Virus record (IMG/VR): IMGVR_UViG_3300023174_000255
Location: 1-48,119 of that record
From: a virus
Reading direction: 5' to 3' (one strand)
Length of the DNA stretch: 48,119 nucleotides
Positions 7,649 through 28,836 of the stretch are shown in pieces. The stretch's first letter is position 1. The number at the start of each line of letters is the position of its first letter. Below the pieces are notes generated by a model. That model saw nothing but the letters and a program-made list of their open reading frames with translations, was not told the origin of the DNA and searched no databases. The position numbers and the translations under genes were made by a program.

Positions 7649-8386
7649 TTACTTGTTTTTATTGAACAGACTTCTGTAGGCCCCATTGCCAGTAAACTTT
7701 GTTTTTAAATTTGTTAAAAAAGCAATTATTTTTTCATTATCTAACTGAGTTATAAGTCTTACATCATAATCAATCTTTTCACGTTTGAATGGAATGTATT
7801 GGACAAAAGGTTCTCCACGTTTAATAAATATCTCAAGATCTTTTTTAGGATTTTTATTATAAACTAGAACTTGCTGATTAATGTCATGGTGTGTATCTGT
7901 ATGAATAATTCCAGGCATCACGCTAAATCTGTTATCAAAATGGTAATAAAGCGGTAATTGCATAACAGACCAACCTGGTTTTGTAATAATTTTCCAAGGA
8001 GATATTGCTTTTAAAACTTTTTGCGCCTCTTGTTCAAAAAGTGCTGGTTTTATGTAATCAATTAATTGTTCGTCAAAATGAATTTCCCAAGTAAAGTCGT
8101 TGTCTCTTCCACACTTCATTGACCAAACTCCAGAACTTGCATTATATTTAATTAAAGTATCTGCCCACATAGGAATGATATATCCTTGTGAAAAATAATC
8201 AGGAAATGACGGACAAGACTTTATTGTCATAGTTTGGTCATACTGTCCTTTATGGTTTGGAATTATTTTCCACCAATCTGGAACAAATTTTTGTGACGGC
8301 TTTGGAGCAACCTCTTCAAGGGTTTCTAGTCCTAGAGATGTGCAGACAAAACTTATTACTGGCTCTTCTTGTTTTTTCTTAAACAC
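7649..8386 (-). CDS. Phage protein of unknown function, paralogue of 16266-16952
   Basis: A 245-residue protein with a clear pattern shared with the 228-residue product at 16.3 kb: P(D/E)W(W/Y)K near the N-terminus, then K(S/-)C(P/M)xFxDxFxxGY, a W-E-I-H/HFTW strand, a G-I-(I/V)-x-(T/I)-D turn and a C-terminal GEPFVQYIPFKRE / GTPILQVIPFKRE. This recalls DUF6065-like proteins I have seen, but I am unsure and no activity is known. It is the last gene of the leftward accessory unit, 3 nt behind the speD-like gene. Confidence 0.6.
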   Translation of the reverse strand: MFKKKQEEPVISFVCTSLGLETLEEVAPKPSQKFVPDWWKIIPNHKGQYDQTMTIKSCPSFPDYFSQGYIIPMWADTLIKYNASSGVWSMKCGRDNDFTWEIHFDEQLIDYIKPALFEQEAQKVLKAISPWKIITKPGWSVMQLPLYYHFDNRFSVMPGIIHTDTHHDINQQVLVYNKNPKKDLEIFIKRGEPFVQYIPFKREKIDYDVRLITQLDNEKIIAFLTNLKTKFTGNGAYRSLFNKNK

Positions 8387-8389
8387 TTT

Positions 8390-8800
8390 TTAGATTTCTA
8401 CAAGAATGTCGTACTTGTCAGGGTATGTTCCACTTTGCTCTAAAACAAAACCTTTTTCTCTATCAAATAAATTATAGTCCATAGACACAATATCAAAGTC
8501 TTCACGAATTGTAAGAAGCACTTCAGACAAGTTCAATTCTCCGCAGGTATACAAATCAAACTGTACTAATCCTGGATCCGCTTCATCCCATATATGAAAT
8601 GCTATATGGCTAGTCTCAATCATTACAATGGCAGTCAAACCTCTATTTCCTGGTTTGTCAACATAAGAAGCAAAAGGTCCTTTAATAATCTTCATATCAA
8701 TGCGTTCAACTAAACGCTTAAGAAAGTCTATTGCCATATCCTCATTGTTCATTGGATTTTTTACTTTGGCATTAATTAACAAATGTTTGTGAAATAACAT
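8390..8800 (-). CDS. speD: S-adenosylmethionine decarboxylase-like protein
   Basis: A 136-residue protein matching the prokaryotic SpeD/AdoMetDC pattern. ETSHIAFHIWDEADPG carries the serine that would become the pyruvoyl cofactor (S64, followed by H65), the proton-donor histidine H69, and FDLYTCG with C86, in the usual order; there are two extra residues between S and C relative to the Thermotoga enzyme I recall. The length fits the short bacterial form. AdoMetDC produces decarboxylated AdoMet for spermidine synthesis; some recent work assigns other decarboxylase activities to relatives. No spermidine synthase is nearby. It has its own promoter and a GGGGGAA ribosome site. Confidence 0.75.
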   Translation of the reverse strand: MLFHKHLLINAKVKNPMNNEDMAIDFLKRLVERIDMKIIKGPFASYVDKPGNRGLTAIVMIETSHIAFHIWDEADPGLVQFDLYTCGELNLSEVLLTIREDFDIVSMDYNLFDREKGFVLEQSGTYPDKYDILVEI

Positions 8801-8824: not shown

Positions 8825-8853
8825 AGTATACAGTATTGCTCACCACTTGCCAA
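8825..8853 (-). promoter_or_regulatory. Promoter of the speD-like gene
   Basis: On the minus strand: -35 TTGGCA (8848-8853), 17-bp spacer, extended -10 ending in TATACT (8825-8830). It overlaps the end of the zinc-ribbon gene and leaves a 24-nt gap to the ATG containing GGGGGAA. Confidence 0.55.
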
Positions 8854-9031
8854 GTGGACAATAAGCCTTTTCTAATTGAGTTTTCATTTTCATAAAACAT
8901 CCACATTTCTTACATGTCTGCGTAAGTGGTCTAAAGGCAGGGCATGCATGACAAATATCTAATCTCTCTTTAATAACTTCTTCTGGCACTCTAGGAGAGC
9001 CATTGATCATATCCCAAGGTTTGGCACTCAT
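8840..9031 (-). CDS. Small zinc-ribbon protein (DUF6171-like)
   Basis: A 63-residue protein with CHACPAF...TCKKCGCFMKMKTQLEKAYCPLGKW. The CxxCP...CxxCGCxMxxK...ACPxGKW signature is common in short phage proteins near structural or accessory genes and fits a zinc-binding fold (DUF6171-like by memory). Its ATG overlaps the preceding stop (ATGA). The biochemical role is unknown. Confidence 0.7.
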   Translation of the reverse strand: MSAKPWDMINGSPRVPEEVIKERLDICHACPAFRPLTQTCKKCGCFMKMKTQLEKAYCPLGKW

Positions 9032-9624
9032 AATATTTCCAATTTTGTCGGGGCACCAATAAGCGACTCATTAACACTAGTCCATAACTGATAAGACATA
9101 GAGGTATTAATACGTGCTGACATACCTATAGATTCCATAACATAATTATATCCTCCAGACTTGGTTTGAACCTTATTCCATAGTCCGTTATCGTATATTA
9201 GGGTTTGGGATGGAAATATAAATAAATAATATATCTTTTTCTCATTTTGCGAGGGGACAGAAGACCAATCCTGGTCTGACTTTGCAAGACACACATAATA
9301 ATCAGCACTATTAGATACAACACTGGCTATCATATTATCCAAACCATCATGTTTTCCTAGCCTTGATCCAGAAAATGTTAGTGTGTTATTTGCATATACG
9401 CCTGATTTGATAGAGAAAGATTCGCCTGACTCTAAAGACATGTCAACACTGATACTATGGCTTCTATTGGGCTGCCAATCGTTTATATACCCTGCTTCTG
9501 AGAAGGTGTTAGCAATTAATTCTTCTAGAAATTCACTTGTGCACGGAAGTCTATAGACACTGTGATGTATCTTTAACTTTTCTGTCAAACCTTCAATAAG
9601 GGTTTGTTTAATTGCTTCTAGCAC
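9028..9624 (-). CDS. Hypothetical protein, possibly restriction-nuclease-like
   Basis: A 198-residue protein. The core SISVDMSLESGESFSIKSG followed by LTFSGSRLGKHDGLDN and YYVCLAKSDQ looks like the beta-strand core of small PD-(D/E)XK enzymes: an acidic residue in a strand, then x-I-K-S-G, then an SGSR helix cap. However, the (D/E)xK acidic position is a Ser (SIK), so this is only a possibility. GTG start at 9624, 5 nt after a TACAAT -10 (predicted leaderless). First gene of the leftward accessory unit. Confidence 0.5.
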   Translation of the reverse strand: MLEAIKQTLIEGLTEKLKIHHSVYRLPCTSEFLEELIANTFSEAGYINDWQPNRSHSISVDMSLESGESFSIKSGVYANNTLTFSGSRLGKHDGLDNMIASVVSNSADYYVCLAKSDQDWSSVPSQNEKKIYYLFIFPSQTLIYDNGLWNKVQTKSGGYNYVMESIGMSARINTSMSYQLWTSVNESLIGAPTKLEIL

Positions 9625-16265: not shown

Positions 16266-16952
16266 ATGAATATTTTAAATTTTAATTCCGTTGGTGATTA
16301 CATGCCAGATATTAAACCAGCAAAAAACCATATTCCAGAGTGGTATAAAAATATTAAAGGGTATAACAAAAATAATTTAAAGTTTGAAAATGACCAAAGT
16401 CCTCCAACAATAAATTTAAAATCCTGCATGCCATTTTTTGATTCATTTAATATTGGGTATATGATAGAACTTGCTCAAGATTTATATGTTGAGACTAAAG
16501 ATAATGAGCCGTATATTCACTGGACGTCAAAACCAGATCCAATAGGTTTTAGAGAAGTTGGAGAAAATATTATTCCAATTCCAGATGGTTATTCACAAAA
16601 TCATTTTACTTGGAAAAACCCACATATTTTAAGTGCTAAAAAAGGATATAGTGCAATAGTTACTCATCCATTTAATAGACATGATTTACCATTTATTAGT
16701 CTTACTGGCATTGTTGATATTGACACATTGGTTGGAAATGGGAATATACCGTTTTTTATTCAGCAAGGGTTTGAGGGTTTAATTCCAAGAGGAACTCCAA
16801 TCCTCCAAGTCATACCTTTTAAAAGAGAGTCTTGGAAAATTAACAAAGATGATTTACTTATAGAAAAAAACTATAAAGAAAATATTGATAAAGGACGATC
16901 AATGATCGGTTGGTATAAATCTAACCGTTGGCAAAAAAAGGAATTTAATTGA
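16266..16952 (+). CDS. Phage protein of unknown function, paralogue of 7649-8386
   Basis: A 228-residue protein related to the leftward accessory protein. Shared points: HIPEWYKNIKGY near residue 30, INLKSCMPFFDSFNIGYMIE, HFTWKNPH, a GIVDIDT turn and LIPRGTPILQVIPFKRESW. Its stop overlaps the TTG start of the glycosyltransferase, so the two are probably made together. Its own well-formed promoter sets it apart from the fibre genes. No activity is known; a DUF6065-like relation is only a memory-based suggestion. Confidence 0.6.
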   Translation: MNILNFNSVGDYMPDIKPAKNHIPEWYKNIKGYNKNNLKFENDQSPPTINLKSCMPFFDSFNIGYMIELAQDLYVETKDNEPYIHWTSKPDPIGFREVGENIIPIPDGYSQNHFTWKNPHILSAKKGYSAIVTHPFNRHDLPFISLTGIVDIDTLVGNGNIPFFIQQGFEGLIPRGTPILQVIPFKRESWKINKDDLLIEKNYKENIDKGRSMIGWYKSNRWQKKEFN

Positions 16953-23290: not shown

Positions 23291-25324
23291 ATGTCTGACA
23301 GTGTTTTTTCTTTTCGTTTATCAGAAGATTTTGTAACAAAATATTCAACTACTCCTGCTCCATTTGGATTTTCAGATGCAGGATCTAACTCACTTGGAGA
23401 AATTACGTTTATTCGTACATATTCTCGTATGAAGGAAGACGGAACCAAAGAACGTTGGCATGAGGTTTGTCGCCGTGTAATTGAGGGTATGTATTCAGTC
23501 CAAAAGAATCATGCTAAAGATAATCGTTTACCATGGAACGATAATAAGGCTCAGAAGTCTGCTCAAGAAGCATTCCAAAGAATGTTTGAGTTAAAGTGGA
23601 CACCACCAGGAAGAGGTCTTTGGGCATTTGGTACACCTATGACTATGGAGAAGCGTAACTCTGCATCCCTTCAAAACTGTGCCATGGTTTCAACTCGTGA
23701 CATTGATCGTAATGATCCAGGTGCTCTATTTGCCTGGGTTATGGATGCATTAATGTTGGGTATAGGTGTAGGATTTGATACTATTGGAAATGAAAAAAAT
23801 CTACCTATATATGCACCCACTGAACCATCAATTACTTATGAAATTCCAGATACTCGTGAAGGATGGGTTGAATCTGTAAGATATCTTATAAACTCATTTT
23901 TACGTCAAAATCAGTCTATTCAAGAATTTGACTATAGCCTAATACGTCCACTAGGTGCCTCAATTAAGGGCTTTGGAGGCGTTGCAAGCGGTCCGCAGCC
24001 ACTCATGGATCTCCATACACGTATTCGTAAAATTATTGGCTCCAGAGCAGGTGAAACACTTGACTCTCGTGCAATTGTAGATATTGTAAACCTTATTGGA
24101 ACATGTGTTGTTTCTGGCAATGTTCGTCGTTCTGCTACTCTTGCTCTTGGAGCACCAGGGGATGAAACATTTATTAATCTTAAAAATCCAGAAGTATTTC
24201 CAGAACGTAACTCATACGATCCAGAAAAACCAGGATGGGCATGGATGTCTAATAATTCTATTGCAGCAGAGGTAGGAACAAAGTATGAAGACTATGTTGA
24301 TTTAATTGCAGACAATGGAGAACCAGGTTTTATTTGGCTTGATGTTGCTCGTAACTATGGTCGCCTTGCAGATGCTCCAGACTATAAAGATTCTAGAATT
24401 ATGGGATTTAACCCTTGTGCAGAACAACCACTTGAATCTTATGAACTATGTACTCTTGTAGAAGTTCACTTAAATCGTCATGAATCCAAAGAAGACTTTC
24501 TTAAGACATTAAAGTTTGCATATCTTTATGGAAAGACTGTAACACTAATGCCAACACACTGGCAACAAACAAACGGTATTATGCAACGCAATCGTCGTAT
24601 TGGCACATCCCTTACAGGTATTGCTGCTTTTGCTGATGAGCATGGTTTGCCAGTTATTCGTGAATGGATGGATGAAGGATATAATACAATTCGTAAATAT
24701 GATCATTCATATTCAGAGTGGCTATGTGTTCGTGAATCAGTTCGTGTAACAACAGTTAAGCCATCAGGTTCTGTATCGCTTCTTTCTGGTGCTACTCCTG
24801 GAGTTCACTGGGGACCTGGAGGAGAATTTTATCTTCGTGCTATTCGTTTTGGAAATACAGATCCAATGATGCATTTGTTTAAAGCAGCAGGGTATAAAAT
24901 TGAAGATGACGTAGTATCAGCAAATACATCAGTAGTTTATTTTCCAGTTGCATCAGGACACAAACGCTCTGAAAAACAAGTAAGTCTATTTGAAAAGATT
25001 GGTTTGGCAGCAACTGCTCAAAAGTACTGGTCAGATAATGGTGTTTCTGTAACATTGTCATTTGATAAAGAAGAGGAAAAAAAGTTTGTTGCTCCAGCAC
25101 TTAATATGTATGAAGGCCAACTAAAGGCAGTCTCATTCCTTCCAATGGGAAATAAGACTTATCCTCAACAACCTTATACAGAAATAACAAGAGAGCAATA
25201 TAATGCATATGTAGGAACTATTGGAAAGATTGATTGGTCTGCTATCTATGATGGTAAAGATAATTTAGATGCAGAGTCTGAAAAATATTGTTCAACAGAT
25301 GCATGTGAGATTAAACTTTATTAA
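23291..25324 (+). CDS. nrdJ: Class II (adenosylcobalamin) ribonucleotide reductase, monomeric type
   Basis: A 677-residue protein resembling Lactobacillus leichmannii RTPR. The expected catalytic residues are in place: C130 (LQNCAMV) and C387 (YELC) as the reducing pair, C376 as the thiyl-radical cysteine and E378 in NPCAEQ, and C667/C672 (KYCSTDAC) as the C-terminal shuttle pair. The 376-387 spacing of 11 equals that of RTPR (408-419). It would reduce ribonucleotides with adenosylcobalamin from the host, in air or without it. No intein or frame break is seen. Isolated among virion genes, with its own promoter and terminator upstream; GAGAGG precedes the ATG. Confidence 0.9.
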   Translation: MSDSVFSFRLSEDFVTKYSTTPAPFGFSDAGSNSLGEITFIRTYSRMKEDGTKERWHEVCRRVIEGMYSVQKNHAKDNRLPWNDNKAQKSAQEAFQRMFELKWTPPGRGLWAFGTPMTMEKRNSASLQNCAMVSTRDIDRNDPGALFAWVMDALMLGIGVGFDTIGNEKNLPIYAPTEPSITYEIPDTREGWVESVRYLINSFLRQNQSIQEFDYSLIRPLGASIKGFGGVASGPQPLMDLHTRIRKIIGSRAGETLDSRAIVDIVNLIGTCVVSGNVRRSATLALGAPGDETFINLKNPEVFPERNSYDPEKPGWAWMSNNSIAAEVGTKYEDYVDLIADNGEPGFIWLDVARNYGRLADAPDYKDSRIMGFNPCAEQPLESYELCTLVEVHLNRHESKEDFLKTLKFAYLYGKTVTLMPTHWQQTNGIMQRNRRIGTSLTGIAAFADEHGLPVIREWMDEGYNTIRKYDHSYSEWLCVRESVRVTTVKPSGSVSLLSGATPGVHWGPGGEFYLRAIRFGNTDPMMHLFKAAGYKIEDDVVSANTSVVYFPVASGHKRSEKQVSLFEKIGLAATAQKYWSDNGVSVTLSFDKEEEKKFVAPALNMYEGQLKAVSFLPMGNKTYPQQPYTEITREQYNAYVGTIGKIDWSAIYDGKDNLDAESEKYCSTDACEIKLY

Positions 25325-25359: not shown

Positions 25360-28300
25360 ATGTCTAATCCATCAAATTTATATGCAGAGAAGATTTATTC
25401 TGAGCACCCACTAGTTCTTTGGGCATTAGATGATCAACTTGATTACATCTCTTTAATTACAGAAAATCAACGGAATATAAACAGTGGATGGACTATAACC
25501 AATGGTACAACTTCATCTGGATCATCCATTAGTGGAGAACCATTTTCTGACAGTGTAACAACCATATTAACAGGAAACTTATCAGTTAATCCAACAATGG
25601 ATATTACTGCAATTAGTCCAACAATTATCAATATAAATACACTTAACAATGATTTAGAAACATTTTCTATAGGTACATACTTTTACTCAAATAGTATTTA
25701 TTTAAGAAATGTTTCAATTGGATATGAATATACGGATCCAAGCACAATGACAGTTGTTCAAAATTTAAAAACATTTTCTACAATTTTTAATGAAAGATGG
25801 TCATATATATCTGAAACATTTGAAAAACCAAACGTAAATGCTAACTTAAGAATAGTATTAGTTGTCGGAATTATTGAAGGTGCATCAAATACATCAGAAA
25901 ATCAATTTTATTTTAATGGACTATCTCTTGGTCAGTGGTCAGAAGAATTTCAAGTAAACTCACTTGGACTAAATACAACAACAGTTCCAGCAGAAGTTAG
26001 CCAGTATGGTGGGCTAGATGCTGTTGAAGCACAAGCCTATGGTATTGCTGAAGACAGCGCTTACTATATTGCAGAATCAAGACTTTATGCTACTAACTCT
26101 GGCATACCGCTTGTATATGGTGCATCTGGAGTTACAGTTTTAAAACCATATAGCGATGCATCACTTATTCTTCCTGGAAAAGGATTTTTAAATCAAAAAG
26201 GACAACATAACGATTACACTGTAGAATTTTGGGCAAGAATAAATGCCAATACATCAGCACCGTTTAGAATATTTGGGCCAATTGCTTCTGAAGATGGCTT
26301 GTATGTTGAGGGTGGATTTATAACACTAGTTATTGGAGATCAGTTTGCATCTCACTTTGTTGGTGAGTGGTATAGACCAATGCTTATTCATATTCGTTTA
26401 ATTAGAAACTCAGCCTCACTTTTAATAAATGGCGAAGAAGTTTTGTCTTTAACTATTGATACATCAAGTCTTGTGCTTCCAACAGAACTATCTGAAGAAT
26501 CTGGAGATGTCGGTAATAATCAAGACTGGGTAGGATTTTATTCATCTGCAGATATATCACCATTTGAAGTTGACTGTGTTGCCATTTATTCATATCAGGT
26601 TCCAGTTACATTAGCAAAACGTAGATGGGTATATGGCCAAGGAGTTATTTCTCCAGAAGGAATTAACTCAGCCTATGGTGGAACCACAGCCTTTATTGAC
26701 TATCCATTCTCAAACTATGCTGTAAATTATAACTATCCAGATTTTGCACAGTGGCAGCAGGGTACATTTGATAATTTATTAACTACCGCAACCACACTAA
26801 GAACCCCAGAGTATTCTTTGCCAGAAATATTTTTAGGTAACAAAACGTTAGATGAACTGTATGCAGATAATCAAGAGTTACAAACTATTGACTCAGGGCC
26901 ATTTTTAGACAACAAGTTCATACGCTTAAGACCAAATGCTAGTTGGAACTCAACAAACTCATACATTAACTTTTCAAGACTAAACATCCTGGCTGATCAA
27001 ATCCACACAGTGTACGGAGTATTTTCAATAATAAATAATACGGAAGATAATACAATATTATTAAAGGTTGTTAATTCACAAAATGGAAACTATTTTGAAG
27101 TAAAGACATTAGACGCAGACATAGTTTATACATTATTTTATAATGGGGTAGAAGAAGAAATATATGTTGAAGAATATGGAATACCAGATGCTGCATTGTT
27201 TTCCGCTGGATTCCAGATAAGTTCATTAGTCAATAACTATGGTGGAAATCTTGCTGCATTCTTTGGCAATCAAAATGGATTAAATTTATATGTTGGTGGA
27301 GATGGAACAAGCAACGTGTTTAGTGGAAGAATTTACTCAGTTGGACTTTCAACAGCAATAAATGCTTCATATGTAGCAACTCATTTTGCAGATAATGGAA
27401 TTGCAATAGCATCATCAGGTCAAGAACTTCTTGATCACACAGCAAGTTATACGCTTTTGCCAACAGAGTCCTATGGTAAATATTTCTTAGATATTGGTGT
27501 TGCTTCATACTGGCAAGACTATCTACCACTTTCTTACTTTGCAAAATATGTAACTGATGAGACTGGCAGCAGTCATTATGATTTAGACTTTTTGCAATTT
27601 AATATTGGATATCCATCGCCTGCAGAACTTACAGAAGATTCTGGTGGAGAATATTATTATGATACAACCAACTCAGAAATCAAGAGTTATGCAACCTTTC
27701 AGTATGTAGTAGATGGAGCCAACTCTGTTGAAGAGTATGCCGATATAGTAAAGCCAAACCAATATAATATTATTGATCTAAATGACTATACTGATTGGGA
27801 AACTACAAAGTTTGAAATTATAAACAATACAATTATATATCCAAAACAAAACATTGACTTTAACTCTTTGGCAATTGTATACAATTTAGAGATTACAAGT
27901 CGTGGCATATTAACAAAGCCAATACTATTAAATAAACTTCAATTTGCTTCACAAGTCTTAAATAGTAACTCATCAAATCCAGTTGGCACAAGATTTGGCG
28001 TAGATCTTTTCCCATATAAAAAGAGTGGAATCTATTATGATTATAAAACCAAGAATCCATTTAGCATATATAAAGAAAGCACACCATATCTGTATTTAAC
28101 AAAAAATTCAGGTATAGAGATAAGGGGAGAGCAAAACAATTTAATTAATCGTGGAATTTCTTTCCCAATAAATAGCCAACTTGCTTCAAACTATAGAATT
28201 AGCGCAACCCAATTGTGGTTTAGATATGACAAAGATTTTTTCCCAGCAGATCCAGTTGAGTTATTTGAAATAAACCATAAACAGGGTACTGTTAAAGTTT

Positions 28301-28836
28301 ACGTGGTAGCCAACAGCGATTCTGGAAATAGAGGAAGGCTTTTTGCTTTAAACGCATCAGGAACTCCTTATGAGGGTATATCATTTTATCTGAACGGATC
28401 AATAGTTAGAGAGCCAGTCTTAAACATTAAAGAATGGTCAGTTATTGGCATATCCTTTGCGGTATCTTTATTATTTGACTCATATCTTGGAAATATTAAT
28501 CTTACAGGCCCAGCGGTATTTAATAATATTGCATATTATCAGGCAAATAGTATTAGAGAAGTTCAGAGCAGTGCAAAGCGACCTTGGCTCAAGGTTTTGA
28601 CAGATACAGTTACCACCTTTCAATGGCAGTTCTGGTTAAATAGTTTTACATGGGACGGTGTGCTTAATCTAGGACAGACAGAATTTTATTTTGTAAATCC
28701 ATCAGATATTTATAAGACCTATACTGGAACTAATAAGATTATTGTTGATGATGCTCAGGGAATATCGTATGCACCAGAATTAATCAAGATATATACAGAG
28801 ACAGAATGGTCAACAAGTATCTCTACACCAGTATAA
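25360..28836 (+). CDS. Large minor tail protein with LamG/ConA-like domain
   Basis: A 1158-residue protein. N-terminal SNLYAEKIYSEHPLVLWALD D is typical of this tail-protein type. A concanavalin/LamG-like sandwich lies around residues 285-380 (HNDYTVEFWARINANTSAPF, then LIHIRLIRNSASLLINGEEV), with further similar beta domains at about 540-680 and 940-1060 (a second SFYLNGS-type unit). Likely a structural tail or tip protein with carbohydrate-binding ability. No membrane segment is seen. Confidence 0.65.
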   Translation: MSNPSNLYAEKIYSEHPLVLWALDDQLDYISLITENQRNINSGWTITNGTTSSGSSISGEPFSDSVTTILTGNLSVNPTMDITAISPTIININTLNNDLETFSIGTYFYSNSIYLRNVSIGYEYTDPSTMTVVQNLKTFSTIFNERWSYISETFEKPNVNANLRIVLVVGIIEGASNTSENQFYFNGLSLGQWSEEFQVNSLGLNTTTVPAEVSQYGGLDAVEAQAYGIAEDSAYYIAESRLYATNSGIPLVYGASGVTVLKPYSDASLILPGKGFLNQKGQHNDYTVEFWARINANTSAPFRIFGPIASEDGLYVEGGFITLVIGDQFASHFVGEWYRPMLIHIRLIRNSASLLINGEEVLSLTIDTSSLVLPTELSEESGDVGNNQDWVGFYSSADISPFEVDCVAIYSYQVPVTLAKRRWVYGQGVISPEGINSAYGGTTAFIDYPFSNYAVNYNYPDFAQWQQGTFDNLLTTATTLRTPEYSLPEIFLGNKTLDELYADNQELQTIDSGPFLDNKFIRLRPNASWNSTNSYINFSRLNILADQIHTVYGVFSIINNTEDNTILLKVVNSQNGNYFEVKTLDADIVYTLFYNGVEEEIYVEEYGIPDAALFSAGFQISSLVNNYGGNLAAFFGNQNGLNLYVGGDGTSNVFSGRIYSVGLSTAINASYVATHFADNGIAIASSGQELLDHTASYTLLPTESYGKYFLDIGVASYWQDYLPLSYFAKYVTDETGSSHYDLDFLQFNIGYPSPAELTEDSGGEYYYDTTNSEIKSYATFQYVVDGANSVEEYADIVKPNQYNIIDLNDYTDWETTKFEIINNTIIYPKQNIDFNSLAIVYNLEITSRGILTKPILLNKLQFASQVLNSNSSNPVGTRFGVDLFPYKKSGIYYDYKTKNPFSIYKESTPYLYLTKNSGIEIRGEQNNLINRGISFPINSQLASNYRISATQLWFRYDKDFFPADPVELFEINHKQGTVKVYVVANSDSGNRGRLFALNASGTPYEGISFYLNGSIVREPVLNIKEWSVIGISFAVSLLFDSYLGNINLTGPAVFNNIAYYQANSIREVQSSAKRPWLKVLTDTVTTFQWQFWLNSFTWDGVLNLGQTEFYFVNPSDIYKTYTGTNKIIVDDAQGISYAPELIKIYTETEWSTSISTPV

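Follow-up and report, generated by a model that had tools for sequence, protein, structure and literature searches.

A SpeD-family gene in a probable actinophage: a predicted pyruvoyl-dependent ornithine or arginine decarboxylase

Introduction

Phage genes of the SpeD family are routinely annotated as S-adenosylmethionine decarboxylase (AdoMetDC) and taken to serve spermidine or AdoMet metabolism. One such gene lies on the minus strand of a 48,119-nucleotide stretch of viral DNA (IMG/VR record IMGVR_UViG_3300023174_000255, positions 1 to 48,119), which is called the window below. The question raised by this locus is whether the encoded enzyme acts on AdoMet or on another substrate. The evidence collected here points to putrescine or agmatine production. 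Judged from its sequence, the protein is probably a pyruvoyl-dependent ornithine or arginine decarboxylase (SpeDC or SpeDA) that derives from SpeD, is no longer an AdoMet decarboxylase, and would supply putrescine. The enzyme class, first described in 2023, and its occurrence in freshwater phages are already published. An actinophage-specific clade of the enzyme appears to be new, being absent from the literature searched, which comprised openly licensed texts.

Gene, family, and fold

The open reading frame starts with ATG, and the purine-rich ATGGGGGAAAC just 5' of this codon could be its ribosome-binding site. The protein of 136 residues matches PF02675 (Pfam AdoMet_dc) with 54 bits (cut-off 25, E 2.5e-14) and phrog_3125 with 64 bits, and a search of its own genome gives an E value of 7.4e-16. 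At the level of sequence, the similarity to the SpeD superfamily is far beyond chance. The structure model that the first-pass annotation had proposed as a check was obtained with AlphaFold2 (pLDDT 92.4, pTM 0.84) and has the fold of the Thermotoga maritima AdoMetDC, with a TM-score of 0.82 by target length and an rmsd of 1.7 Å to 1vr7. The Pfam gathering score, the AdoMetDC fold, and the Ser, His, and Cys of the pyruvoyl enzymes all place the protein in the SpeD superfamily. The gene is intact in the loci read and is under purifying selection, with a dN/dS of about 0.1 (0.08-0.17 against its relatives, and 0.06-0.19 among these relatives). Its position, the residues discussed below, and the neighbouring genes are listed in Table 1.

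Table 1. Positions in the window of the SpeD-family gene, its active-site features, and its neighbours
Feature	Position	Strand	Remarks
SpeD-family gene, 136 aa	8390..8800	-	predicted pyruvoyl-dependent ornithine/arginine decarboxylase (SpeDC/SpeDA type, 'WDE' family)
Predicted self-cleavage site, codons E62-T63-S64	8609..8617	-	from alignment, with position 8800 as the ORF start; S64 would become the pyruvoyl group
Codon H69 (T. maritima H68)	8594..8596	-	from alignment
Codon C86 (T. maritima C83)	8543..8545	-	from alignment
WDExxP motif, W71-D72-E73-A74-D75-P76	8573..8590	-	replaces AdoMetDC WPE; contains the two-residue insertion (D75, P76)
Residues 48-51, second insertion in comparison with AdoMetDC	8648..8659	-	from alignment; loop into invariant G51-N52
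63-aa Cys-rich protein (DUF6171 / phrog_13558)	8840..9031	-	upstream, co-directional; homologue in the flanks of 25/80 related phage loci
198-aa protein, no family	9028..9624	-	4-nt overlap with the 63-aa gene; in 17/80 related loci
245-aa phrog_7084 protein	7649..8386	-	begins 3 nt past the SpeD stop; partner varies, 14/80 loci, not always adjacent

Active-site residues and insertions

The pyruvoyl-enzyme residues S64, H69, and C86, equivalent to S63, H68, and C83 of T. maritima, are present and had been placed correctly by the first reading of the sequence. In an alignment of 116 phage and bacterial sequences, S64 and H69 are found in 116 of 116 and C86 in 115, the remaining sequence having a gap. 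The spacing from S to H is 5, which is canonical, whereas that from H to C is 17 compared with 15 in AdoMetDCs. The two-residue insertion between S and C, to which a change in specificity had tentatively been ascribed, is thus real and sits between H69 and C86, but it is a trait of the family, including the protein of phage HTVC201P, and no peculiarity of this gene. Three further differences had been missed. A second insertion follows Y46, the proline of the AdoMetDC WPE motif is replaced by D72, and glutamate gives way to threonine just before the processing serine, where bona fide AdoMetDCs have x-E-S (A/S-E-S-H becoming E-T-S-H).

The phage family of the window protein is marked by the motifs ETSH, WDExxP, and QxDxY. 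Across the 116 sequences, Y46, G51-N52, T56, E/D-T-S-H, W-D-E, P76, Q80, D82, and Y84 are invariant or nearly so, and T63, Q80, and Y84, which do not vary in the family, are mostly unlike AdoMetDC. A cationic side chain would be well accommodated by the D72 and E73 pair close to the active site. The residues diagnostic of ornithine decarboxylation in SpeDC are Gln, Thr, Phe, and Tyr at four positions (PMC10407285 Fig. 8). A guessed mapping of these onto Q59, T63, F71, and Y84 was dropped; the pattern is absent from CPR sequences.

A different cleavage motif occurs in proteins in which BpsA_C (PF01861, 124 bits) is fused to a C-terminal SpeD domain (PF02675, 65-70 bits). These were found at L156:442-1818 (+) and L163:540-1847 (-), and in the same phylum some 15 genomes have open frames of 437-481 residues with this fusion. 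Their motif is ANSNL or SNSNL and not AESHI, so that the serine is kept and the histidine after it is replaced. The fusion could be a branched-chain polyamine synthase with a built-in AdoMetDC, or its SpeD domain could be dead.

Family scores and phylogeny

The NCBIfam equivalog of AdoMetDC, TIGR03330, scores 45.5 bits, below its cut-off of 75.65. One central-region proline is shared by every proven AdoMetDC, whereas SpeDA arginine decarboxylases do not conserve it (PMC10407285). We take this gamma-Pro to be the proline of WPE, which in the alignment is the sole central-region proline that is conserved in AdoMetDCs and lost here. The first-pass label of an S-adenosylmethionine decarboxylase-like gene is supported as to the SpeD-fold pyruvoyl enzyme and unsupported as to the AdoMet decarboxylase activity, given the equivalog score, the lost proline, and a family whose tested members do not act on AdoMet.

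Among sequenced phages, the best matches are pelagiphages with 38-49% identity, and cyanophage SpeDs follow with about 26-37% and E values near 1e-3. In a FastTree phylogeny, which had been suggested as a check against neofunctionalised SpeD groups, the window protein falls in the family of the HTVC201P protein, a SpeDA, and not with the AdoMetDCs. This family and an HTF-type group are joined with a support of 0.999, apart from the AdoMetDCs, and the clade of the window protein has a support of 1.0. Support for the branching order among the phage groups is weak (0.0-0.9), and no sister group is claimed.

The protein of pelagiphage HTVC201P (AXH71538, locus L083) is 43% identical to the window protein in the alignment. 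In published assays, it decarboxylates L-arginine with a kcat/Km of 290 M-1 s-1, uses neither ornithine nor lysine, has no AdoMetDC activity, and fails to bring back spermidine in E. coli lacking speD (PMC9992855). An aside in the first-pass annotation had already raised a SpeD relative with another decarboxylase activity, and in this it is supported. Five homologues from freshwater phages, described as similar to that of HTVC201P, are ornithine decarboxylases, one of which also uses arginine appreciably (PMC9992855). The same study found one bona fide AdoMetDC, from a Sinorhizobium phage, inside the phage ornithine decarboxylase clade, and clade membership alone is therefore no proof of function.

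Phage locus and host

The gene is the third of four in an apparent operon on the minus strand, which runs from the 198-residue protein through the DUF6171 protein and SpeD to the phrog_7084 protein. Scans of IMG/VR gave 217 relatives at first and at least 595 when broadened. In about 40 related loci, the surrounding genes are syntenic and the immediate partners vary, which fits a stable accessory gene. Spermidine synthase (PF01564) is absent from the window and from 40 of 41 related phage records, the remaining one having a weak match of 23.5 bits.

The window phage probably infects Actinobacteria. An accessory unit in a phage with actinobacterial features had been described from the sequence, and this agrees with a portal that shares 46% identity with those of Streptomyces phages, a GP88 domain, and whiB in relatives. 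Of the 26 records in the window clade, 17 carry whiB, against 0 of 9 from the other clades of the family (hypergeometric P 7e-4, for records that are non-independent and possibly fragments). The window itself, a linear and possibly partial record, has no whiB, and a syntenic record (L040/G325), whose GP88 is 96% identical, carries one. The samples are presumably freshwater, as we take from the IMG sample numbers, and Actinobacteria are abundant in lakes. With the well-supported clade in whiB-bearing phages, the account of phage SpeDA and SpeDC, so far concerned with phages of SAR11 and unassigned ones, comes to include phages that infect Actinobacteria.

Other features of the window include a second phrog_7084 protein at 16266-16952 (+), which is 27% identical (E 7e-11) to its paralogue at 7649-8386 (-). 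Relatives of phrog_7084 occur in haloviruses and in cyanophage S-RIM44, in the latter beside a tryptophan halogenase annotation. The structural arm of the phage contains a gene for a B12-dependent (class II) ribonucleotide reductase at 23291-25324 (+). Just upstream of the portal region, an open frame of 1158 residues at 25360-28836 (+) has no match in Pfam and none by tblastn in 50,697 phage records.

Bacterial relatives

In prokaryote assemblies, 26 loci encode the WDE type, several of them resembling phage contigs. Four of these (L090, L093, L098, and L108) are probably phage contigs and were left out. They sit in assemblies assigned to Paceibacterota, Thermoplasmatales, Gammaproteobacteria, and Pacearchaeota, and anyone tracing the gene to a 'host' would be led astray by them.

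Twenty genomes with the WDE type, whose assemblies may be incomplete, were searched for decarboxylases. A deltaproteobacterial genome has the WDE-type gene in tandem with an HTWPE-type (bona fide-type) SpeD (121 bits) and SpeE, and neither a PF02784 nor a PF01276 decarboxylase (the PLP-dependent ornithine and arginine decarboxylases) was found in it. The WDE-type gene adjoins speE in several gammaproteobacterial genomes. Six of these have an additional weak PF02675 match in a frame of about 250 residues, and one such frame, when examined, looked like class 1a AdoMetDC, with a TIGR03331 score of 38 bits that falls short of the cut-off. The PLP decarboxylase matches that were sampled from the other genomes are LysA, and PF01276 does not exceed its cut-off in any of the genomes searched. 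One genome, G007, has in addition a SpeA-sized PF02784 protein, and its WDE-type gene is on a phage-like contig. Bacterial genomes with the WDE type mostly lack other ornithine or arginine decarboxylases, and genes of the agmatinase family or for agmatine deiminase are present in 15 of 19. Following the logic of PMC10407285, this gene content points indirectly to arginine decarboxylation in most of the bacterial relatives and to ornithine decarboxylation in the deltaproteobacterium.

Proposed function and alternative explanations

The proenzyme would cleave itself between T63 and S64, and S64, with the help of H69 and C86, would be converted to the pyruvoyl group. This group would form a Schiff base with the substrate, followed by the loss of CO2. 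With ornithine the product would be putrescine; with arginine it would be agmatine, which host enzymes would then convert. During infection, putrescine-derived polyamines may thereby rise and serve phage DNA packaging and translation, without the need for PLP or AdoMet. Ornithine, which could well be the substrate, is slightly favoured, since the homologues from freshwater phages proved to be ornithine decarboxylases when assayed. Arginine is a somewhat less probable substrate, yet close behind, because the one assayed relative open to sequence comparison is an arginine decarboxylase and a route through agmatine exists in most bacterial relatives. Both assignments are extrapolated across about 40-50% identity, and from tested freshwater phage enzymes of 117-122 residues to a clade of at least 126.

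A bona fide AdoMetDC would instead deliver decarboxylated AdoMet to a host spermidine synthase and raise spermidine. The Pfam match, the conserved Ser, His, and Cys, and the fold agree with such an enzyme, and cyanophage SpeDs such as that of S-PM2 are functional AdoMetDCs (PMC9992855). However, this explanation is rejected as very unlikely on the equivalog cut-off, the lost WPE proline, and the relatives; the two insertions are foreign to AdoMetDCs, and the nearest tested relative is an arginine decarboxylase that does not act on AdoMet (PMC9992855). The window also lacks a spermidine synthase gene, although the host could supply one. The suggestion in the first-pass annotation that the enzyme lowers AdoMet and so blocks host methylation-based defence, as a functional analogue of the T3 and Svi3-3 SAM lyases, is still less likely. 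Phage enzymes that degrade SAM exist (SAM lyase, PMC7877911), and one of them (6zm9, TMq 0.38) matches the model, though very weakly, in structure. This weak fold match, on which SAM-lyase-like depletion is rejected, is far below the AdoMetDC matches, and the protein belongs to a pyruvoyl-enzyme family with its Ser, His, and Cys conserved. Moreover, it lacks the AdoMetDC proline, the tested members of its family do not decarboxylate AdoMet, and no recognisable defence or methylation gene is among the neighbours.

Decarboxylation of another amino acid or amine precursor, possibly specific to actinophage hosts, would be consistent with a clade that is distinct, conserved, and often found in phages with whiB. 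It is nevertheless improbable in view of a catalytic core nearly identical to that of HTVC201P and of published tests of the family, which gave arginine or ornithine and never lysine. Slightly less improbable is the broader proposal that the actinophage clade is a separate and widespread specificity branch of the pyruvoyl SpeD fold, with a new substrate or a dual activity on ornithine, arginine, or AdoMet, tuned to freshwater Actinobacteria; if so, many lake actinophages would rewire host polyamine metabolism. Phage accessory genes can decay, but nothing direct favours a non-catalytic relic or a regulatory protein, which is highly improbable for an intact gene with a dN/dS of about 0.1 and invariant catalytic residues. 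The preferred reading is that of a SpeDC- or SpeDA-type decarboxylase.

Comparison with known systems

The window protein resembles the SpeDA of HTVC201P in its catalytic core (ETSHIAFHxWDExxP and QxDxYTC), its insertions, its similar length, and its nature as a phage accessory gene. In contrast, the HTVC201P gene lies beside ribonucleotide reductase genes in a phage with a SAR11 host, whereas the window gene is part of a minus-strand accessory operon and its host is probably actinobacterial. The SpeDC ornithine decarboxylases of freshwater phages (LBP ATV46410 and UCP01-04; PMC9992855) share the freshwater phage origin and the similarity to the HTVC201P protein, and have no AdoMetDC activity. 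They are shorter than the members of the window clade (126-182 residues), and are compared here by description only.

Class 1b AdoMetDCs, such as those of T. maritima, B. subtilis, and cyanophage S-PM2, have the same fold and the same pyruvoyl Ser, His, and Cys. They differ in having x-E-S-H in place of E-T-S-H, WPE in place of WDExxP, F in place of Y46, and A in place of Q80, and they lack both insertions. A further arrangement is seen in a record named Microcystis phage MaAM05 (L088:486-2324), where adjacent WPE-type and HSF-type SpeD genes are followed by speE, which is the layout of published bacterial SpeD/SpeDC/SpeE clusters. The bacterial WDE-type SpeDs of marine Gammaproteobacteria, Deltaproteobacteria, and Phycisphaerae (L091-L115) have the same signature as the window protein and are 39-53% identical to it. 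Unlike the window gene, they are chromosomal, and they often lie beside speE or in a genome with a route from agmatine to putrescine.
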